DNA of 35,111 nt from Aurantimicrobium sp. (lineage in GTDB: Bacteria; Actinomycetota; Actinomycetes; Actinomycetales; Microbacteriaceae). Location: positions 15,998-51,108 of the forward strand of contig JAHEGZ010000002.1 in assembly GCA_024644865.1 (NCBI GenBank), read 5' to 3'. The position numbers and the translations under genes were made by a program. The notes under the pieces are model-generated. The model saw nothing but the letters and a program-made list of their open reading frames with translations, was not told the origin of the DNA and did not search any database. Shown piece after piece: positions 9,542 through 20,935 of the stretch. The number at the start of each line of letters is the position of its first letter. Position 1 is the stretch's first letter.

Positions 9542-11557
9542 CTAAGGCAACACGGCAATCACGCTTGCGACGATTCCGTCGACATCGTCAGGTCGAACGA
9601 GCACGCCCCGGTCCATGACGGACGCGTCGATTGCCTTACCCTCGCGGGTTGCCTGAACGACACGCTTGAGCGGAATCTCGAGACGCTTGCCCGTTGCGGT
9701 TCGAGGAACCGACGGCGTCCACACGATGGTGTCGGGAACGTGGCGCGGCGAGAGCTCGGTACGGATAGTCGTTTTGATGAGCTTCTCGAGCGCATCCATG
9801 TCTTGACCATCTTTAGCAACGGCCAGCAGAACCAACTGCCCCATTCCGCCGGCGGGGTCTTCGAAGTGCACGACCATGGAGTCGGCAATGCCAGGCAGCG
9901 GGTCGAGAACCCCGTAAAACTCGGCTGTTCCGAGACGAACCCCGCCACGATTGAGCGTGGCATCGGAGCGCCCCGAGATGATCCAGGTGTCGCGACTGGT
10001 GTGAATCAGCCAGTCACCGTGACGCCACACGCCCGGGTAGACATCGAAGTAGGAGGCCTTGTACCGCTCGCCATCGGTGTCCCCCCAGAAGAAGAGCGGC
10101 ATCGACGGCAGAGGCTTTGTGCAGACCAGTTCGCCGGGCTCGTCAATCGGCACGGTGGCTCCCTCGGGACTCCACGCGTCGAGCGCGACACCGAGCATGG
10201 GAACGACCATCTCACCGGCGTGAACACCCGCGAGCGACGAACCCGACAGGAATCCCGAGCAAATGTCGGTTCCACCGGAGGCCGGGCAGAGGTACAGGTT
10301 GGGGTTCACCTGGTCATAGACCCACACAGCGACATCCGCAGCCAGGGGTGAACCTGAGCATTGGATTTCGCGCAGTTTGCTCAGGTCCCACTTTTTTCCG
10401 GGCTCGATACCCGCATGCGCACTCGCGGCCAGGTACGCCGAGCCGGTCGCGAAATAGGTTGCCCCGGTCGTTCCGAGCATTGCCCACTGTGACCACTCGC
10501 CGTCGAGGGCCGGCCAGTTGGGGTCACCGTCCATGAGCACCATGGATGCGCCGGTCATGAGCGTCGAAACGCTCAACGTCCAGACCATCCATCCGGTGGT
10601 CGAGAACCAGAAGGTGCGGTCGGTTTCGTCGATGTCAAACATCAGGTGCAAGTCACGCATGTGTGTGACGAGGAGTCCGCCGTGGCCGTGCACGATTGCC
10701 TTGGGCTTGCCAGTTGTACCTGACGAGAAGAGGACGACAAGTGGCGTATCGAAGGGCACCGGCTCAACGATGTAGTCAGCTGCTGTTGAGGTGAAGTCGC
10801 TCCAGACGATGGCACCGGCGGGAACATCCGCATTCTCATCTGCGTAAGGCAAGAGAACCGCGGTAATGCCCGGGATCGCTTCGCGAATCGCGGCGAGTTC
10901 GTCAACGCGACTGATTCGTTTGGATCCCCAACTGTAACCATCAAGTGCGACGATGAGTTTGGGTTCGAGCTGCTCGATGCGGTCGAGCACCGAACGCGTT
11001 CCCATCTCGGGCGGAACCGAGCAGAAAACTGCACCCAGCGAAGCCGCCGCGATGAAGAGTGCGATGGTTTCAGGGATGTTCGGAAGATAGCCGACGACAC
11101 GATCGCCCTTGGCGATTCCGGCGCGAATCAAGCCCTGCTGAATTCGAGTCACGAGGTCGACGACCTCGTGACCGGTGAGCTCAAACGCCTCTCGCGTCTG
11201 ACTGCGAGCGATGAGCATTGGCTTGTCGCCTTGGCTCGACAGACCACGAACGAGGTGTTCACCCCAGTTGATCAGTGCACCCGGGAACCACTTCGCGCCC
11301 GGCATTTTCGTCGAGGCAAGAACGCGCTCATACGGAGCGTGTTCGATGATTTTGGTCTCGCGCCACAGCTCGCCCCAGAAATCTTCGAGGTTGTCGACCG
11401 ACCACTGCCAGGCGTCGCGATAAGTCTCGAAGTGCACACCTGTTTGCGACTCAATTCGGTTAAAGAATCGACCGGCTTGGTAGTTGGACCAGTCTGAACG
11501 CGCGGGCGGCGCCTTGAGGAGCTTGCCCTGGTTAGCGGGCAACGACGGTGATACCAC
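9542..11557 (-). CDS. aacS: Acetoacetyl-CoA synthetase (acetoacetate--CoA ligase)
   Basis: Activates acetoacetate with ATP and CoA to acetoacetyl-CoA in the cytoplasm. The 671-residue length fits the family, and the N-terminus (WQWSVDNLEDFWGELWRE, then PGAKWFPGALINWGEHLVRG) is typical of AacS rather than acetyl-CoA synthetase. The AMP-binding loop VVLFSSGTTGKPKAIVHG begins near residue 274. WRHGDWLIHT and SGRSDATLNRGGVRLGTAEF mark the hinge, and TATGKRLEIPLKR holds the C-terminal Lys. The GTG start is backed by AAGGAAGG at 6 bases. A 17-base palindrome lies just before the ribosome site and matches one at the divergent carboxylase promoter, so this gene is probably part of the IclR regulon. 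It ties the neighbouring carboxylase operon to acetoacetate. Confidence 0.94.
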   Translation of the reverse strand: MVSPSLPANQGKLLKAPPARSDWSNYQAGRFFNRIESQTGVHFETYRDAWQWSVDNLEDFWGELWRETKIIEHAPYERVLASTKMPGAKWFPGALINWGEHLVRGLSSQGDKPMLIARSQTREAFELTGHEVVDLVTRIQQGLIRAGIAKGDRVVGYLPNIPETIALFIAAASLGAVFCSVPPEMGTRSVLDRIEQLEPKLIVALDGYSWGSKRISRVDELAAIREAIPGITAVLLPYADENADVPAGAIVWSDFTSTAADYIVEPVPFDTPLVVLFSSGTTGKPKAIVHGHGGLLVTHMRDLHLMFDIDETDRTFWFSTTGWMVWTLSVSTLMTGASMVLMDGDPNWPALDGEWSQWAMLGTTGATYFATGSAYLAASAHAGIEPGKKWDLSKLREIQCSGSPLAADVAVWVYDQVNPNLYLCPASGGTDICSGFLSGSSLAGVHAGEMVVPMLGVALDAWSPEGATVPIDEPGELVCTKPLPSMPLFFWGDTDGERYKASYFDVYPGVWRHGDWLIHTSRDTWIISGRSDATLNRGGVRLGTAEFYGVLDPLPGIADSMVVHFEDPAGGMGQLVLLAVAKDGQDMDALEKLIKTTIRTELSPRHVPDTIVWTPSVPRTATGKRLEIPLKRVVQATREGKAIDASVMDRGVLVRPDDVDGIVASVIAVLP

Positions 11558-11587: not shown

Positions 11588-12373
11588 CTAGTCAGCCTGC
11601 GGGTCGGCCGCGAGCTCTTTGAGACGCCGACCAAGGCCGGCAGCGGCCTCGATCAACTGGGGAACAAAAACTTCTAAATCGTCTCGAAGCTCGTAGTTCA
11701 CGATTCCAATGGCGGCTTCAACCTTGCCATTGACCATGACGGGAGCTGCGATCGCGGTCGAGCCCGGCACATACTCTTCAGTCGAGTGAGCAAAGCCCTG
11801 CTCGCGCACCTGGTCGAGCATTTTGTTCAGGGCGCGAGGCGTCGTCACCGTGCTGTCGGTGAATCTCGGCAACGGCATGCCTGTGATGACGTCTATGAAT
11901 CCTGGGTCGCTGAGGGCAAGGATGGCCTGACCAACGGCGGTCGCGTGCAACGGAATGCGTGCACCAATACGACTTTGGACAGGTGTTTTCGTATCGAGCG
12001 TGAGCTTTTCGATGTAGACCGCATCCACACCATCACACACGGCGAGCTGCACTGTTTCGCGGCACTCATATTGCAGATTGAGCAGGAACGGCATGGCGAC
12101 CTCGCGCATGTGTCCGTGAACCGGGGTGAGAAGACCCATCTCCCACATGCGAACGCCGAGGCTGTATCGCCCGGAGGCGTCGCGCTGCAAGAAACGACCC
12201 TCTTCGAGTTCACCCGCGAGTCGATACACCGTAGCCACCGGTAGACCTGCAACCCGGGCCAACTGGCTCAGCGTCATCGATGGCTCTTGGGCACTCAGTG
12301 CACCGAGGACGGCAAGCGCCCGAGCAGTGACCGACTTGGCCGTGCTCTTGGGAAACTCGCGTGCTTCGCTCAT
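11588..12373 (-). CDS. IclR family transcriptional regulator
   Basis: A 261-residue protein of IclR length. The N-terminal winged helix-turn-helix is at about residues 33-65 (MTLSQLARVAGLPVATVYRL). The effector domain shows RETVQLAVCDGVDAVYIEKL, IPLHATAVGQAILA, and GSTAIAAPVMVNGKVEAAIG, the usual ligand-pocket landmarks. It lies between aacS (same strand, downstream) and the divergent carboxylase operon, and near-identical palindromes flank it on both sides. It is therefore the likely regulator of both units; whether it activates or represses cannot be told. A TAGGCT box ends 9 bases before its ATG, and no good ribosome site is seen. The effector is unknown, but an operon substrate or acetoacetate is a reasonable guess. 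Confidence 0.93.
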   Translation of the reverse strand: MSEAREFPKSTAKSVTARALAVLGALSAQEPSMTLSQLARVAGLPVATVYRLAGELEEGRFLQRDASGRYSLGVRMWEMGLLTPVHGHMREVAMPFLLNLQYECRETVQLAVCDGVDAVYIEKLTLDTKTPVQSRIGARIPLHATAVGQAILALSDPGFIDVITGMPLPRFTDSTVTTPRALNKMLDQVREQGFAHSTEEYVPGSTAIAAPVMVNGKVEAAIGIVNYELRDDLEVFVPQLIEAAAGLGRRLKELAADPQAD

Positions 12374-12522: not shown

Positions 12523-14349
12523 ATGTCAGATCGTCGCTTCCCAGATCCCTACGAGATTGAAACCCCGGCCGGCGCCGAGGGTTGGCAAGACCTTTACGCG
12601 TACCACAACCTGTTTCAGGATGGTCGCCGAGCGGTAGACGGCAAGAAGACGTGGTTCCGAAACTCGCTGCACTTCCCCGAGGTGTCGTATCCCTTCGACC
12701 AAATCACCATCGACTGCGCGTTTATGGGAACCGGCGTGACGAATACTCGTGTTTTCGCCATGCCGCCGGCCAAGGGCCTCGACGTGCGGGTCGTCAACGG
12801 TTACACCTACATGAGTGCACTGCCAGCACCCGAGCCCGACGAGATTGAGCGTCGCGCTGCCGAATTCGGTGTTCGCGCTGGTCACTACTTCGCCAACTGG
12901 GACAACCTCTACGAAGACTGGGTAGAACGAGTCAAGAAGCAGATTAACGCCGTGAAATCGATCGCCATCCCCGAGATGAGCGAATACGAGTCAATTGAAT
13001 ATGTAACCGAGACTCACGGAAACACGCAGGCAAACACTCTCCTGGCCAACTACCTCGATCTGATCGAAAAGGGTGACGGCATCTGGACGCTTCACTCCGA
13101 GTTCCTCAACCTCGGGTACGCCGCCTACCTGCAGTTCCTGTTGCTGTGCAAGGCAAACTTCCCCGACATCACAGACCAAACCATTTCTCGCATGGTTTCA
13201 GGCATCGACGTGATCTTGTTCCGACCCGACGATGAACTTCGTCGCCTGGCCAAGAAGGCTGAAGACCTCGGGGTGGGCGACGCGGTCGTTGCCGCAACCA
13301 CTGAGGCCGAGCTGCGCGCCAACCTTTCGGGAACTGACGCCGGAAAGGCGTGGATTGCCGACCTGGATGAGACGGCAAATCCCTGGTTCTACTTCTCTAA
13401 CGGTTCTGGCATGTATCACCACCACCGCTCGTGGGTTGACGACATGACCCTTCCTATTCAGGGCATCGGTGACTACATCAAGATGGTTCGCCGCGGTGAG
13501 TCACTCGAGCGCGAGCTCGACAAGCGTCAGGCCGAGCGCGACGAAATCACGAACCTGTATCGCGACCTTCTCGACGATGACGCCAAGGCCGAGTTCGACG
13601 GCGCCCTAGGCCTCTCGCGAACGGTGTTTCCTTATGTCGAAAACCACAACTTCTACATCGAGCACTGGTTCATGACCGAGTTCTGGAACAAGGTCCGCGA
13701 ATTCGGCAAGCTCTTCGCGCAGTGGGGCTTCTGGTCCAACGCCGATGACATTTTCTACTTGCGTCGCGCCGAGGTCGTCGAGGCCGTCATTGACTTGCAG
13801 GCCGCCTGGAGCCACGGCACCGAGCCTCAGGGCCCGGCATACTGGCCAGCCGTCGTTGCCAAGCGCAAAGACATTTACAAGGCCTTGGCCGCGTGGACTC
13901 CCCCGCCTGCACTTGGCCCGGTTCCCGAGGATGTCAGTGAGCCACTGACCATCATGCTCTGGGGAATCACTCCCGAGACTGTCGAGCGCTGGCTCGATCA
14001 GGCCGACGGCAGTGGCAGCAAGACCGAACTCGGCGGATTTGCCGCAGCTCCAGGCGTTGCTGAGGGAATCGCTCGCGTTGTGCTCACTCCTGACCAACTC
14101 GACACAGTCCAAGAAGGCGAAATCCTGGTTGCCCCGGTGACCAACACGAGTTGGACCCCGGTATTCAGTCGCATCAAAGCTGCTGTCAGCGACATCGGCG
14201 GCATCATGTGCCACGCGGCCATTGTCTCCCGCGAATACGGGCTGCCTGCAGTCGTCGGAACGGGCTTCGGCACGACCACGATCAAGACCGGCATGCGCAT
14301 CCGAGTTGATGGCGACAGTGGCAAAGTAACAATTTTGGATGAGGCGTAA
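12523..14349 (+). CDS. PEP-utilizing-enzyme family protein with swivelling phospho-His domain, phenylphosphate-synthase-alpha-like
   Basis: A 608-residue protein. The C-terminal 100 or so residues are the mobile phosphohistidine domain of PEP synthase-type enzymes: LGGFAAAPGVAEGIARVV, then GGIMCHAAIVSREYGLPAVVG with the phospho-acceptor His at residue 564. The first 480 residues are neither the ATP-grasp domain nor the PEP/pyruvate TIM barrel of PEP synthase. They include the cluster MYHHHRSWVDD (His 299-301). Size and His position resemble subunit 1 of phenylphosphate synthase from anaerobic phenol degraders, which passes phosphate from a His to phenol; that assignment is by memory. A separate ATP-grasp partner is needed in that system and none is encoded nearby. 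It heads the carboxylase operon and may phosphorylate an enol or help activate the carboxylase substrate. GGAG precedes the ATG. Confidence 0.8.
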   Translation: MSDRRFPDPYEIETPAGAEGWQDLYAYHNLFQDGRRAVDGKKTWFRNSLHFPEVSYPFDQITIDCAFMGTGVTNTRVFAMPPAKGLDVRVVNGYTYMSALPAPEPDEIERRAAEFGVRAGHYFANWDNLYEDWVERVKKQINAVKSIAIPEMSEYESIEYVTETHGNTQANTLLANYLDLIEKGDGIWTLHSEFLNLGYAAYLQFLLLCKANFPDITDQTISRMVSGIDVILFRPDDELRRLAKKAEDLGVGDAVVAATTEAELRANLSGTDAGKAWIADLDETANPWFYFSNGSGMYHHHRSWVDDMTLPIQGIGDYIKMVRRGESLERELDKRQAERDEITNLYRDLLDDDAKAEFDGALGLSRTVFPYVENHNFYIEHWFMTEFWNKVREFGKLFAQWGFWSNADDIFYLRRAEVVEAVIDLQAAWSHGTEPQGPAYWPAVVAKRKDIYKALAAWTPPPALGPVPEDVSEPLTIMLWGITPETVERWLDQADGSGSKTELGGFAAAPGVAEGIARVVLTPDQLDTVQEGEILVAPVTNTSWTPVFSRIKAAVSDIGGIMCHAAIVSREYGLPAVVGTGFGTTTIKTGMRIRVDGDSGKVTILDEA

Positions 14350-14352
14350 GAC

Positions 14353-14832
14353 ATGAGTGAACAGCCCAGTTGGCAAGACCTGCTCGATCTCGTCGCGCAG
14401 CTGAATGAGAGCAACTTTGAGTCAGCGGCCGTCTCGTACGGCAACATCTCGGTGACATTGTCGAACAGCGACACTTTCGTCGGCGGCGCTCCTGTTGCCA
14501 CAGCCGCCCCCGTGGTCGCAGCACCTGCAGTCGTGGCAGCACCTGCAGCCGCACCTGCAGCCAGCCCGGCGGCACCCGCAGCGCCGGCCGGCGAGACGAT
14601 TGACGCGCCCATGATCGGCGTGTTCTACCGTCGCCCCGCGCCCGGCGCAGAGGTTTTTGCACAGCCAGGCGACCGAGTCGAAGCTGATACCACCATCGGA
14701 ATTATCGAAATCATGAAGCTCATGAATCCGATTGCCGCGGGTAAAGCCGGCGTTCTCGGTGAGTTCCTTGCTCAGGATGCCCAGGCCGTCGAGTTCGGAA
14801 CGCCCCTGGTTGTCATCGACACGAACGCATAG
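14353..14832 (+). CDS. Biotin carboxyl carrier protein (AccB-like)
   Basis: A 159-residue carrier. The N-terminal 40 or so residues are AccB-like (WQDLLDLVAQLNESNFESAAV), followed by an Ala/Pro/Val-rich flexible linker at about residues 49-78 and a biotinyl domain. The biotinylation motif is EIMKLMNPI with the acceptor Lys at residue 122, an AccB-type variant of AMKM. The protein carries CO2 between the carboxylase and the carboxyltransferase encoded next. It begins 3 bases after the preceding stop and ends 2 bases before the biotin carboxylase gene. The AccB-type carrier paired with a pyruvate-carboxylase-type transferase is unusual, since acyl-CoA carboxylases use a crotonase-type transferase. 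Confidence 0.93.
   Translation: MSEQPSWQDLLDLVAQLNESNFESAAVSYGNISVTLSNSDTFVGGAPVATAAPVVAAPAVVAAPAAAPAASPAAPAAPAGETIDAPMIGVFYRRPAPGAEVFAQPGDRVEADTTIGIIEIMKLMNPIAAGKAGVLGEFLAQDAQAVEFGTPLVVIDTNA
14521..14560 (+). repeat. Three copies of the decamer GCACCTGCAG in the carrier-protein linker
   Basis: Exact copies start at 14521, 14539 and 14551. They encode the Ala-Pro-Ala units of the flexible linker. This is a normal source of linker length variation by slippage, not a regulatory element. Confidence 0.7.
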
Positions 14833-14834
14833 TC

Positions 14835-16199
14835 ATGACCGAGAAGCCCGTAGTCCTCGTAGCCAATCGAGGAGAGATTGCCATGCGCATCATTGCGGCG
14901 GCGCGCCGAATTGGCGCGTCACCCGTTCTCGCGGCCAGCACGGCGGATGCTGACTCTCCCGCGGCTCGCGCTGCCGATCGAGTCATTGTCATCGGTGCAG
15001 CTCCTGCCGGTCAGTCCTACCTGCGACCCGAGCAGGTCGCTCAGGCAGCAGTGCACGCGGGAGCGGCAGTGGTTCATCCCGGCTACGGATTCTTGAGTGA
15101 ACAACCCAAACTGTGTGAGCTGCTCGAAGAAGAGGGCATCGCTTTTGCCGGACCCAGGCCCGAGACTCTGCGCGCCGTGGGCGACAAGGGGTCAGCACGC
15201 GAGGTTGCTATCGCAGCAGGTGTTCCCGTAGCCGCCGGCGTTGAAATCACCGATGTCACGAATGTCGTACCGCTCGGAGCACAGATCGGCTATCCCCTGC
15301 TTATTAAGGCAATTCACGGAGGCGGTGGCCGCGGAATTCGTTTGGTGACGAACCCCGACGAACTTGCCACACTTGCTCCACAGGCCGCCGCCGAGGCAGA
15401 GGCTGCGTTCGGCAACGGCGCTTTGTATGTCGAGCGCTACTACGGCAAGGCTCGTCACGTCGAGGTTCAGGTTTTCGGCGATGGCTTTGGTCGGGCCTGG
15501 ATCTTTGGTGACCGCGACTGCTCCGTGCAGCGTCGCCACCAGAAACTCATCGAAGAATGCCCGGCACCGAACCTCACAGATGCTCGCCGCAAGGTGTTGC
15601 ACGACTCGTCTCGCGCTCTCGTCGAGGCGCTGAAGTACCGCGGAGCAGGAACGGTGGAGTTCCTCGTCGACACCGAGACCGAGGATGTCGTGTTCCTCGA
15701 GGTAAACGCTCGCATTCAGGTCGAGCACCCGGTGACCGAAGAGGCGTTCGGCGTTGATCTCGTGGCCGCGCAGCTGCGACTCGCTCTCGGTCAAGACCCT
15801 GAACTCCCTGAGGTGGGCCCTGTTCCACCAGCGGCGGTGATTGAACTTCGCATCAACGCCGAAGACCCCGAGGCCGACTTCATGCCGAATTCGGGCACGA
15901 TCAGCAAGCTGTCATGGCCACGCGGGCCGGGCATCCGTGTCGACACTCAAATCGAAGAGGGTTACAAGTTCCCGCCGTTCTACGACAGCCTGATGGCCAA
16001 ACTCATTGTGCGCGCGCACAACCGCGAGGCTGCGGTCGCAGCGATTCGTCAGGCGGCGCGAAACACGAACATCGAGGGCCTCAAGACCACCCTGTCGATG
16101 CACGATTACGTGCTTTCGCATCCTGACTTCATCGCCGGAGCTGTGCCCACCTCATGGTTTGGTCCGGTTTGGGAAGCCCGCAAGGAGAACAACGTATGA
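14835..16199 (+). CDS. Biotin carboxylase subunit (AccC-like)
   Basis: ATP-dependent carboxylation of carrier-bound biotin with bicarbonate. The 454-residue length matches stand-alone biotin carboxylases. The N-terminal domain opens VVLVANRGEIAMRII; the ATP-grasp glycine loop is HGGGGRGI at about 161-168. The metal and bicarbonate site is FLEVNARIQVEHPV near residue 290, where the usual EMNTR reads EVNAR. No carrier or transferase domain is fused. The ATG is 2 bases after the stop of the carrier gene, and its own stop overlaps the start of the transferase gene (ATGA), so the three are coupled and probably form one enzyme. Confidence 0.95.
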   Translation: MTEKPVVLVANRGEIAMRIIAAARRIGASPVLAASTADADSPAARAADRVIVIGAAPAGQSYLRPEQVAQAAVHAGAAVVHPGYGFLSEQPKLCELLEEEGIAFAGPRPETLRAVGDKGSAREVAIAAGVPVAAGVEITDVTNVVPLGAQIGYPLLIKAIHGGGGRGIRLVTNPDELATLAPQAAAEAEAAFGNGALYVERYYGKARHVEVQVFGDGFGRAWIFGDRDCSVQRRHQKLIEECPAPNLTDARRKVLHDSSRALVEALKYRGAGTVEFLVDTETEDVVFLEVNARIQVEHPVTEEAFGVDLVAAQLRLALGQDPELPEVGPVPPAAVIELRINAEDPEADFMPNSGTISKLSWPRGPGIRVDTQIEEGYKFPPFYDSLMAKLIVRAHNREAAVAAIRQAARNTNIEGLKTTLSMHDYVLSHPDFIAGAVPTSWFGPVWEARKENNV

Positions 16200-17761
16200 C
16201 CGACCACATGAGCCTTTCTGAGGGAGCGCCGCGCGTTCGTCGAGGCCCGATCAAGATTGTCGACACGAGCGTTCGCGACGGCAACCAGAGCCTCTGGGGT
16301 GTTGCCGGCATCACCACGGGAATGGTCGAGGCGATGGGTCCGATTTATGAGCGGATGGGTCTTGCTGCGCTCGATTTCACGAGCTCGACACACCTCAATA
16401 TGGGCGTGAAATTCCACGGCGAGAACCCCTGGGAGCGCATCGCGCGCATGCGTGCCGCCGCCCCCAATCTGCACCTGTCGTGCATCACCACGGGCATGAG
16501 ATTTATGTCGTGGGAGAAGGCTGACGAATCCGTTTTTCGCATGTCGCTGCGCGTGATGGCGCGTCACGGGCTGAGCCGTCTCATGATCGCCGAGCCGATG
16601 AATGACATCGAACAAACCATCAAGGTCGCCGAGTGGGCAAAGCAAGAGGGCATCGCCGAGGTTATGGCCGGGGTGGTGTTCACCGAAAGCCCTGTGCACA
16701 CCGACGAGAAGTACCGTGCGGCTACCCGCGCCTACAACGCAAGTGAATTCATCGATGTGGTCTACCTCAAAGACCCCGGCGGACTTCTCACCGCCGAGCG
16801 CACGCGCGAGCTCATTCCGATGATGCGCGCCGAGCTTCCCAATAAGACCCTCGAATTGCACAGTCACTGCACGACCGGAGCTGCCCCTCACCTGTATCTC
16901 GTCGCCGCCGAACTCGGAGTCGATGTGCTTCACACGGGTCTTGGCCCGCTCTCAAACGGCACTGCCCAACCGAGCCTCGAAAACCTGCTCACCAACCTCG
17001 ACACCCTCGGCATCGAGGTCGACATCGATCGGGAAGCGGTGGCCGAGGGCGCCGCACTGTTGCACGAGTTCGCCAAGGCACAAGGGCTGACCCCGGGCGC
17101 AGCCCATGAGTATGACTTGTCGTTCCACCAACACCAAGTGCCCGGTGGAATGATGGGCACGATGAAGCGACAGCTTGCCGAAATCGGCATGTCCGATGCC
17201 CTGCCCGCGGTGATCGCTGAAGCCGGTCGCGTTCGAGCCGACCTGGGCTACCCCATCATGGTTACCCCGTTCAGCCAGTTCGTCGGTAGCCAAGCCTTGA
17301 TGAACGTTTTGGCGCAAAAGAGCGGCCAGGAGCGCTACAGCCGCATCCCCGACGAGGTGTTGAAGTTCGTCCTGGGCCACTTTGGCACCCCCGAGGGTCC
17401 GATCTCGCCCGAGGTGCTCAAAAAAGTGGCTGCTATGCCCCGCACAGCTGAACTCTCGGTTCCCAAGGTCGAGCGCACGCTCGAGCAGCTTCAAGCGGAA
17501 TACGCCGCCAAGTTCGGTCGCGAGCTCTCTGAAGAAGAGATGTTGCTCCGAATCGTGATGCCCGAAGACCAAGCGGAAATCGCCATTAATGCAGCTCCGG
17601 CTCCTGCGTGGAATGGTTCTCGCTCAGCGAGAAAGGCATCCTCGGGTTCGGTCACGAGTGCCGCATCCTTTATTGAGGCAGTCAACGCACTTCCCCACTG
17701 GAAACACCTCAACGTGAACTTCAACGGCGAGTCAATTCGACTGCACCGCACCAACCCCTAA
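16196..17761 (+). CDS. Carboxyltransferase subunit of PC/OadA/transcarboxylase-5S type, altered substrate pocket
   Basis: A 521-residue protein with an HMGL-like TIM barrel followed by the C-terminal half of the pyruvate carboxylase, oxaloacetate decarboxylase alpha and 5S family. Metal ligands are in place (D28 in VRDGNQSL, H222 and H224 in LHSHCTTG), as are the Lys of the YLKDPGG motif (K192, carbamylated in relatives), the catalytic Thr (T357 in VTPFSQFVG) and the VPGGMMG loop. By hand alignment the LLRG Arg that binds pyruvate is T99 (ITTG), the Tyr seven residues on is W106, and the paired Asp is N68. The donor side thus looks active while the acceptor is unlikely to be pyruvate. The ATG at 16196 has AAGGAG before it and overlaps the previous stop; the frame is open further upstream. 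The final 20 residues resemble the 5S tail. No sodium-pump subunit genes are present. Confidence 0.88.
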   Translation: MTDHMSLSEGAPRVRRGPIKIVDTSVRDGNQSLWGVAGITTGMVEAMGPIYERMGLAALDFTSSTHLNMGVKFHGENPWERIARMRAAAPNLHLSCITTGMRFMSWEKADESVFRMSLRVMARHGLSRLMIAEPMNDIEQTIKVAEWAKQEGIAEVMAGVVFTESPVHTDEKYRAATRAYNASEFIDVVYLKDPGGLLTAERTRELIPMMRAELPNKTLELHSHCTTGAAPHLYLVAAELGVDVLHTGLGPLSNGTAQPSLENLLTNLDTLGIEVDIDREAVAEGAALLHEFAKAQGLTPGAAHEYDLSFHQHQVPGGMMGTMKRQLAEIGMSDALPAVIAEAGRVRADLGYPIMVTPFSQFVGSQALMNVLAQKSGQERYSRIPDEVLKFVLGHFGTPEGPISPEVLKKVAAMPRTAELSVPKVERTLEQLQAEYAAKFGRELSEEEMLLRIVMPEDQAEIAINAAPAPAWNGSRSARKASSGSVTSAASFIEAVNALPHWKHLNVNFNGESIRLHRTNP

Positions 17762-17768
17762 GGAAAAC

Positions 17769-18662
17769 ATGACCAGCGCAGAAAACATTGAGCGTCTCGC
17801 ACACACGAACGGCGTGATGTTTGACATTGACGGATGCTTGGTCATCTCCGACGGCCCGGCCGGCCAAGACGGACGAGTGCTCGAGGGCGCCGCTGAGGCG
17901 ATTGAGTACATGAAGTCGAGCGGTCGCAAATACTGCGTGTACACAAACGGCACCGCACAGAAGCCCACCGACATCGCCGAGCACCTGCGCTCGATGGGCA
18001 TCAACGTTCCCGACGAGCTCGTTCTTACCCCTGCCGTTGTCGCCGCCGAGGTCATCAAAGACACTTACGGAGACAAGCCAGTCATGGTCTTCGGTGGTGA
18101 GGGAATGTTGCACGACTTCAAGAAGCGTGGCGTGAACCTGGTCGACATCGAGGCTGCCATCAAGGGCTCAAAACCGGATGTTGCCGCCGTTGTTGTGGGC
18201 TGGGACACCGATTTCGGCAAGAACAAGATTCAGATTGCGGCCGAGGCGATTCTGGCTGGCGCAGACCTCTACTGCACGAGCTTTTCGCCCGCATTTGCGT
18301 CCAAAGATCGTCTCAACGTGGGCGTCTCCGGCTTCATTACCGCGGGCCTTCTCTTTGTGACCGAGACCACGAAGTTTGAAATTCTGGGCAAACCCTCGCA
18401 GCACTCAATGAACATCATCAGTCGCGTGCTCGATGTTCCGATTCCTGAAATCCTCGTCATCGGTGACGACATCGTGCTCGAAGCATCAATGGCGCGCAAA
18501 GCTGGCGCATTCGCTGGAGTTGTGCTGACCGGCACGAGCAAGCAAAAAGACGTCGACGCCGCCAGCGCAGATGTTGCCCCTGAACTTGTGATTCAGAGCA
18601 TGACCGAATTCGTTGACCTGTTCACTCAGGCGGATGCGCAATACCGTCAAATAGCGGGCTAA
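17769..18662 (+). CDS. HAD-superfamily phosphatase, NagD / p-nitrophenylphosphatase type
   Basis: A 297-residue HAD hydrolase. Motif I is MFDIDGCLV (nucleophile D19, acid D21), motif II is VYTNGTA, and motif IV is VIGDDIVLEASMARKAGAF. The long insert between motifs II and III is the type-II cap of the NagD family. Such enzymes dephosphorylate small organic phosphates, e.g. phosphoglycolate, glycerol phosphate or aryl phosphates. It begins 7 bases after the transferase stop with AAGGAAA before the ATG, so it belongs to the operon. Its presence next to a phospho-His protein suggests that a phosphorylated small molecule is made or repaired here; the substrate is unknown. Confidence 0.88.
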   Translation: MTSAENIERLAHTNGVMFDIDGCLVISDGPAGQDGRVLEGAAEAIEYMKSSGRKYCVYTNGTAQKPTDIAEHLRSMGINVPDELVLTPAVVAAEVIKDTYGDKPVMVFGGEGMLHDFKKRGVNLVDIEAAIKGSKPDVAAVVVGWDTDFGKNKIQIAAEAILAGADLYCTSFSPAFASKDRLNVGVSGFITAGLLFVTETTKFEILGKPSQHSMNIISRVLDVPIPEILVIGDDIVLEASMARKAGAFAGVVLTGTSKQKDVDAASADVAPELVIQSMTEFVDLFTQADAQYRQIAG

Positions 18663-18715: not shown

Positions 18716-19468
18716 ATGGGAACTTTTAGCAATCACGTCGCACTCGTCACCGGTGGCGGTCAGGGTTTGGGCAAGGCGTTCGCGCTTGAGCTGGGTGCCG
18801 AAGGGGCCGCGGTAGTAGTCACAGACATGAACCTCACGACCGCACAGAGCGTGGCTGACGAAATCAAGGCTGCTGGCGGTAGGGCCATCGCGGTCAAGTT
18901 GAATACAACCTCGCTAGACGACCACGAGGCCGCCGTTGCCGCAGCGCTCAAAGAATTCGGCAAACTCACTCTTGCGGTGAACAATGCCGGAATTGGCGAC
19001 CCTGCCGCTTTTATCGGAGAGATGGACATGGATCAGTGGAACCACATGATCAATGTGAACCTCAACGGTGTCGCGTACGGTCTTCGCCATCAAATTCCTG
19101 CGATGAAGGCAGCCGGCGGCGGATCCATCGTCAACATGGCTTCAATTCTGGGTTCGGTGGGCGTTGTCGGAGTTCCCGCTGGCTACACGGCGGCTAAGCA
19201 CGCCGTGGTCGGACTGACGAAACAGGCGGCACTCGAGCATGCTGCCGACGGCATCCGGGTGAACTCGGTCGGTCCGGCTTTTATCAAGACTCCCCTGCTG
19301 GGCAACCTCCCCGACGAGGCCCTTCCCGCTTTGGCCGCCGAACACCCCCTGGGTCGCCTCGGAGAACCTGAAGAGGTGTCTGCACTCGTGTGCTTCTTGC
19401 TTTCAGACCGAGCAAGCTTCATCACGGGCAGCTACCACCTTGTCGATGGCGGCTGGACCGCCAGGTAG
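18716..19468 (+). CDS. SDR-family NAD(P)-dependent oxidoreductase
   Basis: A 250-residue classical short-chain dehydrogenase. The cofactor loop is TGGGQGLG (12-19), with D37 at the end of the second strand favouring NAD over NADP. NNAG is at 89-92, and the catalytic Ser143, Tyr157 and Lys161 (YTAAK) are present. The C-terminal GSYHLVDGGWT is typical. The start at 18716 follows AAAGGAG; upstream in-frame codons lack such a site. It is last in the operon, 53 bases after the HAD gene. In context it might oxidise a secondary alcohol to the ketone that is carboxylated, or act on 3-hydroxybutyrate/acetoacetate; the sequence alone does not decide. Confidence 0.9.
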   Translation: MGTFSNHVALVTGGGQGLGKAFALELGAEGAAVVVTDMNLTTAQSVADEIKAAGGRAIAVKLNTTSLDDHEAAVAAALKEFGKLTLAVNNAGIGDPAAFIGEMDMDQWNHMINVNLNGVAYGLRHQIPAMKAAGGGSIVNMASILGSVGVVGVPAGYTAAKHAVVGLTKQAALEHAADGIRVNSVGPAFIKTPLLGNLPDEALPALAAEHPLGRLGEPEEVSALVCFLLSDRASFITGSYHLVDGGWTAR

Positions 19469-20121: not shown

Positions 20122-20154
20122 AATGAATATCGGTATAGTCTTTCGTTATTCATT
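20122..20154. promoter_or_regulatory. Candidate TetR operator around the -10 box of the surface-protein gene
   Basis: AATGAATA (20122-20129) and TATTCATT (20147-20154) are perfect inverted 8-mers separated by 17 bases. Between them is TATAGT (20134-20139), the likely -10 box of the plus-strand surface-protein gene. A protein bound here would block transcription. The next gene leftward is a TetR regulator facing away, the usual layout of such pairs. Confidence 0.6.
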
Positions 20155-20167
20155 TCAAGGAGACACC

Positions 20168-20935
20168 ATGACCAATATCTCTACTGGCAAGACATTCTTC
20201 GCTGCAGTTGTAGCCGGGATTGCTGGGGTCCTCCTCGTGACATCGCCCGTGCACGCCCTCCCCGAAGAAACGCTCGATCAACAGTTCGAAACTCCGGCTG
20301 ATTTCAACGACTGGAACGGGATTTATTACCTGCCCGAAGACATTCAGACATTTACCGCAGGTTCTGCTGGAACGCTCTCGTCGGTTCAACTCGAGCTCTA
20401 CAAACTTGGCATGACGCTCGTAAACAATCTGCGCCTGAGGGTTTTCCCGACGGATTCGAACGGAAAACCGGTTATCGACGGGGCTCCCCTGGCGGTGACA
20501 ACCGCGGCTGGAAGCCAACTCACCGATAACAAGGCGTGGGTTAGTTTTTCGTTCTCAACACCGGCCCAGCTAGTTTCGGGAACTCGCTATGCCCTCGCAC
20601 TCACGCTCGACGGTGAGGGCGACCTTGAGGAAAACCCTCACTGGGCCGCTTTCTCAAGGGCGGGTGACACGTTCCCGAGCGGACAAAGTTGCGTCGACAG
20701 CAGTCCGCAGGCAAGTCCCCACGAGTTTCTCTGCAATGACAGCAGTGACTTGGGCTTTAGAACATTCATGAGCTCAGGCGGTGACGGCAGCCCTGAACAA
20801 CCCAGTGCTGCAGGAGAACCCGAAATGCCAAATACCGGCTCGAACCTCGGCACCCTGCTGACCGCTGGCGGGCTCGCCGCCGTCTCAGTCGTTGGCGGCG
20901 CGCTGATACTTTGGCGACGAAAAACTCGAAGCTAA
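20168..20935 (+). CDS. Sortase-anchored secreted surface protein
   Basis: A 255-residue exported protein. Residues 1-30 form a Sec signal peptide with a likely cut after SPVHA. The mature region up to about residue 205 is beta-rich (SVQLELYKLGMTLVNNLRLR, then WVSFSFSTPAQLVSGTRYAL), reminiscent of carbohydrate-binding or jelly-roll modules, with two Cys (SCVDSS and FLCNDSS) that may form a disulfide. The C-terminus is a cell-wall sorting signal: MPNTG at 220-224, a hydrophobic helix, and RRKTRS. The start at 20168 has AAGGAG 6 bases before it; an in-frame ATG at 20123 lies inside the operator. Ligand and sortase partner are not visible here. Confidence 0.85.
   Translation: MTNISTGKTFFAAVVAGIAGVLLVTSPVHALPEETLDQQFETPADFNDWNGIYYLPEDIQTFTAGSAGTLSSVQLELYKLGMTLVNNLRLRVFPTDSNGKPVIDGAPLAVTTAAGSQLTDNKAWVSFSFSTPAQLVSGTRYALALTLDGEGDLEENPHWAAFSRAGDTFPSGQSCVDSSPQASPHEFLCNDSSDLGFRTFMSSGGDGSPEQPSAAGEPEMPNTGSNLGTLLTAGGLAAVSVVGGALILWRRKTRS

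Follow-up and report, generated by a model that had tools for sequence, protein, structure and literature searches.

The carboxyltransferase (CT) encoded at positions 16196–17761 (+ strand) of the window, the whole stretch of 35,111 nt of Aurantimicrobium sp. DNA analysed here, very probably forms the acceptor side of a biotin carboxylase made of three proteins (HpeCBA/AcvCDE/XccBCA family) and acts on a phosphorylated 4-hydroxyphenyl methyl ketone. The gene does not encode a pyruvate carboxylase (PC) and is most likely the core of lignin-aromatic (4-hydroxyacetophenone, HAP) breakdown in a small-genome actinobacterium. The changes at the Arg, Tyr and Asp positions of the CT are explained by the operon, which comprises an HpeH-type subunit, a biotin carboxyl carrier protein (BCCP), a biotin carboxylase (BC), the CT, a HAD phosphatase and a short-chain dehydrogenase (SDR). 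A sequence-only reading of the window had proposed an acceptor without a carboxylate. This is supported by the Hpe/Acv-type operon and by relatives in Actinomadura macra and Rhodococcus rhodochrous GD02 that act on hydroxyphenyl ketones. The acceptor probably carries its anion as an aryl phosphate instead.

Pocket residues of the carboxyltransferase

The CT reading frame codes for 521 aa from an ATG at 16196. A longer frame opens at 16154, and the residue numbers of the sequence-only reading match the start at 16196. The protein is of the PC/OadA/5S kind, exceeding the Pfam cut-offs of both HMGL-like (PF00682, 36.7 bits, cut-off 29) and PYC_OADA (PF02436, 113.9 bits, cut-off 27). The AlphaFold model (pLDDT 88.2, pTM 0.84) matched OadA (2nx9, Z 42.1), 5S with pyruvate (1rqh, Z 41.4) and R. 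etli PC with pyruvate (4jx5, Z 37.6) in the PDB. The best named NCBIfam match was PC subunit B, with 269 bits and thus under its cut-off of 402.

The CT alignment had 146 rows, the window CT and 145 fetched homologues, and some rows were identical or near-copies (L003 and L154 are one gene of the genome from which the window comes, hereafter the own genome). T99 and W106 occurred together in 89 rows, including the window (T/W rows), and 52 PC/OadA-like rows had Arg and Tyr (R/Y rows). The five other rows were L124 (S/W), L041 (S/F), L042 (A/S), L068 (R/F) and L096 (a gap in an incomplete sequence).

The catalytic residues D28, K192, H222, H224 and T357, described earlier as kept, were identical in 89/89 T/W and 52/52 R/Y rows, and R27 and Q31 were likewise identical across both groups. 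Positions 27–33 do read RDGNQSL, as had been noted. The replacement of Arg, Tyr and Asp by T99, W106 and N68 was confirmed by profile alignment with 5ks8, 2nx9, 1s3h and 1rqb: T99 aligns with the Arg of LLRG, W106 with the Tyr and N68 with the Asp of T-F/Y-D. The LLRG Arg was present in these four structures and in 52/52 R/Y rows, a group drawn by that very residue. Judged by this Arg, the window CT (T99) falls outside PC/OadA/5S; judged by the D, H, H, K and T residues, it falls inside.

An alignment of homologues had been proposed as a check on whether the three replacements are fixed. This held for T99 and W106 (89/89, in a group drawn by T and W) and not for N68, where the T/W rows have A (52), S (22), G (10) or another residue (5 of 89). 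Position 68 was D in 52/52 R/Y rows. Two further positions, which were not used to draw the group, were also invariant: R102 and F103 occurred in 89/89 T/W rows, and the R/Y rows had N (51) or S (1) at 102 and L or T (28/24) at 103. R128 and R325 were Arg in 89/89 T/W rows; the PC-like rows had I/V (52/52) and mostly S/Q (48/52), respectively. The stretch from T99 to W106 (T99, R102, F103, W106; 16490–16513, + strand) replaces the LLRG...Y of PC in the alignment.

A quick tree of 110 rows (89 T/W, 17 of the R/Y rows and 4 other) placed the T/W rows in one group with an SH-aLRT of 100, and L124 fell inside it. The tree gave a long-branch warning, chiefly for L041, L042 and L068, whose positions are unsure. 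The 80 genome loci behind the survey were found by two peptide patterns, one of which was RDGNQSLW, so G29, N30 and W34 are conserved in part because of how the loci were selected; CT positions 99–106 were in neither pattern. With T99, R102, F103 and W106 fixed in 89/89 rows and a single group in the tree, the T/W signature exceeds chance.

In PC, the LLRG Arg binds the pyruvate carboxylate; the residue roles used here follow the PC literature. Y628 and T882 are named in the titles of PC PDB entries. R102, an invariant Arg three residues past T99, could be a candidate for phosphate binding or for the place of the old Arg. In the papers covered, we found no report of a homologue with T99/W106-type residues using pyruvate. 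The main text of PMC9618137 is silent on the active site, on arginine or tryptophan residues and on PC. HpeB goes unmentioned in the available parts of PMC12167813 and PMC13101465, and the latter are also silent on PC.

The operon, tested relatives and the proposed route

BCCP (14353–14832, + strand; PF00364, motif EIMKLM with K122), BC (14835–16199, + strand; PF00289, PF02786 and PF02785) and CT are three contiguous separate proteins spanning 14353–17761, as in the Hpe/Acv carboxylases. Upstream lies the HpeH-type kinase subunit of 608 aa (12523–14349, + strand), with a PEP-utiliser swivel (PF00391), an acceptor part, His564 in SxxGGxxxH and 801 bits to NF006153 (cut-off 578). Downstream follow an HpeD-like HAD-IIA phosphatase (17769–18662, + strand; PF13344, motif DIDG at 19) and the SDR (18716–19468, + strand; PF13561), a candidate 1-(4-hydroxyphenyl)ethanol dehydrogenase. 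An IclR-family regulator (11588–12373, − strand; PF01614/PF09339) is divergent from the operon, and so is an acetoacetate--CoA-ligase-like gene with a GTG start (9542–11557, − strand; 671 aa), a candidate for the HpeE role. Downstream of the cluster, 20123–20935 codes for a protein of 270 aa that carries an LPXTG cell-wall anchor and weakly matches choice-of-anchor R.

The gene set is that of the Hpe/Acv hydroxyphenylethanone pathway, save for the SDR and the absent second kinase subunit. Measured against the complete operon hpeHICBADEF, the HAD phosphatase follows the carboxylase genes, H and I do not occur together, and the operon has no HpeF-type hydrolase; the own genome gave one homologue, on contig 33. 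The SDR is found at the equivalent place in the relatives L074 and L077–L083 and is not there in A. macra or in the Rhodococcus JS3073 plasmid. Its match to 4ure/4urf ('cyclohexanol dehydrogenase', E 1.1e-66) ranked eighth of 13, with seven other dehydrogenases scoring higher. We take 4ure to be Hped. The text of PMC11242144 does not mention 4ure/4urf and gives no PDB identity for Hped. Several points speak against the Hpe reading: the ligase scores as an acetoacetate--CoA ligase and is only 40% identical to that of JS3073, hpeI is absent from the operon and the only PPDK_N gene found in the own genome is of another type, A. macra and JS3073 have no SDR at this place, a PobA-like protein of the own genome passes one of two profile cut-offs, and no intradiol dioxygenase turned up.

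The JS3073 plasmid (L064) has the order H, I, BCCP, BC, CT, HAD, ligase, amidohydrolase. The identities to the window were 70% for H, 48% for BCCP, 78% for BC, 67% for CT, 53% for HAD, 40% for the ligase and 66% for the IclR regulator beside the cluster. The CT of A. macra NBRC 14102 (L091, NZ_BCQT01000001.1) is 66% identical, belongs to the T/W group and has R102 and F103. It shares a well-supported actinobacterial set with the window CT in the tree, which was built without GD02 and SYK-6 sequences.

According to the available parts of PMC13101465, the same record, NZ_BCQT01000001.1, is the source of the A. macra operon, whose first six genes, in RHA1, converted HAP, acetovanillone (AV) and, weakly, acetosyringone to beta-ketopropionates. 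These parts also state that RHA1 grew on neither AV nor HAP when it carried the A. macra genes, unlike RHA1 with the GD02 genes. As the A. macra CT bears the signature and its operon is active on HAP and AV, a protein with the signature works in a pathway with a carboxylate-free acceptor. The GD02 carboxylase takes 4-phospho-acetovanillone and 4-phospho-acetophenone and refuses the unphosphorylated ketones (PMC9618137). Table 1 of that paper gives hpeB as the carboxyltransferase and hpeA as the biotin carboxylase; the masses (HpeA 57.4 kDa, HpeB 49.3 kDa) and the related gene orders fit the reverse.

For Aurantimicrobium, we infer the following reactions. A 4-hydroxyphenyl methyl ketone, most likely HAP, would be phosphorylated on the phenol, and BC would charge BCCP. 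The metal site of the CT (D28, H222, H224, K192), together with R27/Q31 and T357, would enolise the ketone methyl, and CO2 would move over from carboxybiotin: metal-bound 4-phospho-acetophenone, deprotonated via T357, would thus give 4-phospho-benzoylacetate. T99 may free the space of the PC Arg, and R102 with F103/W106, perhaps also R128/R325, may bind the ring and the phosphate. The HAD phosphatase would take off the phosphate, and the acetoacetate-CoA-ligase-like enzyme would form the CoA ester. An HpeF/CouO-like hydrolase encoded on another contig would then release acetyl-CoA and 4-hydroxybenzoate, which would pass through a PobA-like enzyme to protocatechuate 4,5-cleavage.

The downstream genes are present in the own genome. 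The HpeF-like amidohydrolase on contig 33 (61% to A. macra) lies beside a CoA ligase, an SDR and an acyl-CoA dehydrogenase, a set that presumably resembles the hydroxycinnamate (cou) genes. Contig 28 (L192:357-7253) holds a protocatechuate 4,5-cleavage set of two amidohydrolases, a LigB-type dioxygenase, an oxidoreductase that we take to be LigC-like, an IclR regulator and a PobA-like 4-hydroxybenzoate 3-monooxygenase (above the NF006091 and below the TIGR02360 cut-off). A search of the own genome for an intradiol dioxygenase gave none; the LigB-type gene was found instead. The PobA-like and LigB-type genes lie roughly 20 kb from a cre-like cluster on the same contig (L071:2705-12179), which contains an aldehyde dehydrogenase, HD proteins, a ferredoxin-reductase-like protein, an SDR, a PEP-utiliser subunit (606 aa), an ATP-grasp subunit (355 aa) and a P450 (414 aa). 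A 4-ethylphenol route through phosphorylation, P450, SDR and the carboxylase is possible in the own genome.

The shared fold and the best named NCBIfam match, below its cut-off, would also fit a PC or an oxaloacetate decarboxylase subunit that binds the carboxylate by other residues. We consider the chance of this close to nil, since all three of the Arg, Tyr and Asp positions are altered and the operon contains kinase and phosphatase genes. The own genome also has a separate PC-like gene (a 1141-aa open frame of the R/Y group), so pyruvate carboxylation does not need the window operon; the PC reading of the CT was rejected on the strength of its residues and this gene. The divergent ligase, which exceeds the cut-offs for acetoacetate--CoA ligase (NF002937, 722 bits, cut-off 639; TIGR01217, 636 bits, cut-off 521), would fit a biotin-dependent carboxylase of acetone or another aliphatic ketone, in which the kinase-like subunit activates acetone and the acetoacetate formed passes to the neighbouring ligase. 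However, the A. macra and GD02 clusters also hold such a ligase, and these relatives use hydroxyphenyl ketones (PMC13101465, PMC9618137). Together with the HpeF-, PobA- and LigB-like genes of the own genome, this makes an acetone carboxylase very improbable, and that reading was dropped after the JS3073 and A. macra clusters came to light. The biotin-independent acetone/acetophenone carboxylases (Acx/Apc) work without biotin partners, and the operon has BCCP and BC. Apc is another, ATP-dependent carboxylase class in the available parts of the literature.

HpeH without HpeI

Between the HpeH stop and the BCCP start lie 3 nt (14350–14352), at the site of hpeI (the ATP-grasp subunit) in other Hpe clusters, and this leaves no hpeI. 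The same 3-nt spacing between the H stop and the BCCP match occurred in L074, L078, L079, L081 and L082. In L077, L064, L085 and L091, the distance between H and BCCP was 1130–1268 nt, with hpeI within.

The own genome had one PF01326 (PPDK_N) match, in the cre-type cluster on contig 28; at 94.79% completeness and 121 contigs, this genome alone does not prove that HpeI is absent. One PPDK_N gene per genome (completeness not given) was also found in the five relatives with the same junction and in L080 and L083, where H lies beyond the stretch covered. The PPDK_N genes of these seven genomes are of the cre type and lie beside a P450 (73–86% to the own contig-28 protein vs 41–43% to the JS3073 hpeI); the L078 copy is fragmentary. 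Two PPDK_N genes, one cre-type and one hpe-type, are present in Alpinimonas (L077), where hpeI is retained. In the genome of L096, an hpe-type H occurs with part of hpeI at the end of a contig, alongside a longer PEP-synthase-like gene.

HpeH is not decaying, as judged from the presence of His564 and a low dN. Its dN to L074, L078 and L082 was 0.099, 0.081 and 0.077, compared with 0.137, 0.257 and 0.258 for the CT. HpeH was among the slowest-changing genes of the operon, with only BC in L074 lower (dN 0.084). As synonymous differences were high (HpeH pS 0.59–0.67), dN/dS is not given. Gene conversion of the HpeH swivel towards the cre type was not seen: the identity of the own cre-type H was 0.64, 0.64 and 0.62 to the window-type swivels (window, L074, L078) and 0.61–0.65 to HpeH with its own HpeI (L064, L077, L085, L091, L093). 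Without such a shift, the swivel lends no support to an adaptation to a cre-type partner.

In the available parts of PMC12167813, no stable complex forms between HpeH and HpeI, His581 proves essential, and GD02 HpeH by itself transfers phosphate from 4-phospho-acetophenone to AV. HpeH without HpeI might be charged in one of two ways, a proposal to which we give an even chance. Either the cre-type I serves the HpeH of the operon (hydroxyacetophenone) as well as the cre-type H (alkylphenols), or HpeH is an ATP-independent exchanger that uses aryl phosphates of the cre-type pathway. A shared subunit, if real, would mean that a two-component dikinase has turned modular in small-genome actinobacteria; an exchanger would link 4-ethylphenol and 4-hydroxyacetophenone breakdown. 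HpeH without HpeI thus opens a test of mixing parts of two-component small-molecule dikinases.

An idle, leftover HpeH would fit an operon without hpeI and the cre-type H, I, P450 and companion genes on contig 28. The carboxylase would then be fed only by 4-phospho-acetophenone, formed from 4-ethylphenol via the cre-type kinase, P450 and dehydrogenase. An idle HpeH would also fit the Aurantimicrobium loci L075 and L076, where the carboxylase genes occur without an HpeH-type H and near cre-type genes. Yet His564 is kept and HpeH changes slowly, and we regard this explanation as unlikely. In Aurantimicrobium minutum (L075, L076), the cre-type set near the carboxylase genes (SDR, H, I, P450) is convergent.

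Distribution and comparison with known systems

The locus survey covered 84 loci, 80 from the genome scan and four from plasmids. The 80 genome loci are the best 80 of 502 confirmed relatives and hence a sample of the nearest relatives. H and I were counted whether of hpe or cre type and whether inside the operon or not: 43 loci had H and I, 19 a Tm-1-like gene, 8 only H and 14 neither kinase type. Twelve of these 14 were shorter than 20 kb (the exceptions were L140 and L152), and 41 of the 47 loci of at least 20 kb had H and I or a Tm-1-like gene. The phosphatase was present in 73 of the 84 loci, BCCP in 80 and BC in 75.

Several loci deviated from the usual gene set. The Thermomicrobium-type loci L110 (Bacterium HR28), L112 and L130 had H, BCCP, CT and HAD, with no BC or ATP-grasp subunit seen in the stretch examined. 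L105 (Sphaerobacter) had two H and one I, and no biotin carboxylase was seen. A Rhodococcus oxybenzonivorans plasmid (L068:2077-14232) carries a PEP-utiliser, a PPDK-like gene, BCCP, BC, a distant CT (34%), a thiolase and a tyrosine-phosphatase-like gene; these may encode a further carboxylase for an activated aromatic. The metagenome bin L142, whose title names Klebsiella pneumoniae, has an Hpe-like cluster with a CT beside the gammaproteobacterial bin L133 in the tree, and that title may be wrong.

Current annotation overlooks this CT family: the T/W CT of L065 is named 'hypothetical protein' and those of L066 and L067 'biotin carboxyl carrier protein'. The T99, R102, F103 and W106 signature separates the carboxylases of the Hpe/Acv family from pyruvate carboxylases. 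The lignin-ketone pathway is extended to Microbacteriaceae with small genomes, Aurantimicrobium among them; some of these bacteria are cultured. Publications on the family date back to 2022; what appears to be new is the signature and the variant of HpeH without HpeI, as far as the papers covered could show. Neither HpeH without HpeI nor an Hpe cluster in Aurantimicrobium was found in the titles and abstract openings covered, which does not amount to absence from print.

Compared with the CT of PC, OadA and transcarboxylase 5S, the window CT is the same in fold and catalytic residues and differs in the pocket (Arg to T99, Tyr to W106, Asp to N68 and Asn to R102). As in the Hpe pathway of GD02 and A. 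macra, the window has H, BCCP, BC, CT and HAD in one operon and a ligase nearby. Unlike in the Hpe operons, hpeI and hpeF are missing from its operon, and the phosphatase gene is followed by an SDR; its ligase gene is divergently oriented, and the product is only about 40% identical to those of A. macra and JS3073. The Acv (Sphingobium SYK-6) and MarK-type pathways, as described in the available parts of PMC13101465, also combine a carboxylase, a phosphatase and a phenol kinase. The window differs from these in holding an HpeH-type subunit, with no Tm-1-like gene seen. Loci with a Tm-1-like gene, assumed to be MarK-like, carry T/W CTs as well.

The closest characterised homologue of GD02 HpeE is acsA2. 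In the p-ethylphenol cluster of Aromatoleum aromaticum EbN1 (acsA, xccABC, hped), going by its description, an AcsA-like ligase, a biotin carboxylase and an SDR occur together, as they do in the window; hped was renamed from ChnA and is clustered with acsA in the available part of PMC4630880. As in the cre cluster of Corynebacterium glutamicum (CreHI kinase), the second H/I pair of the own genome lies beside a P450. The cre-type cluster is separate from the window operon, on contig 28, and its H is 47–48% identical to the window-type H of L074 and L078.
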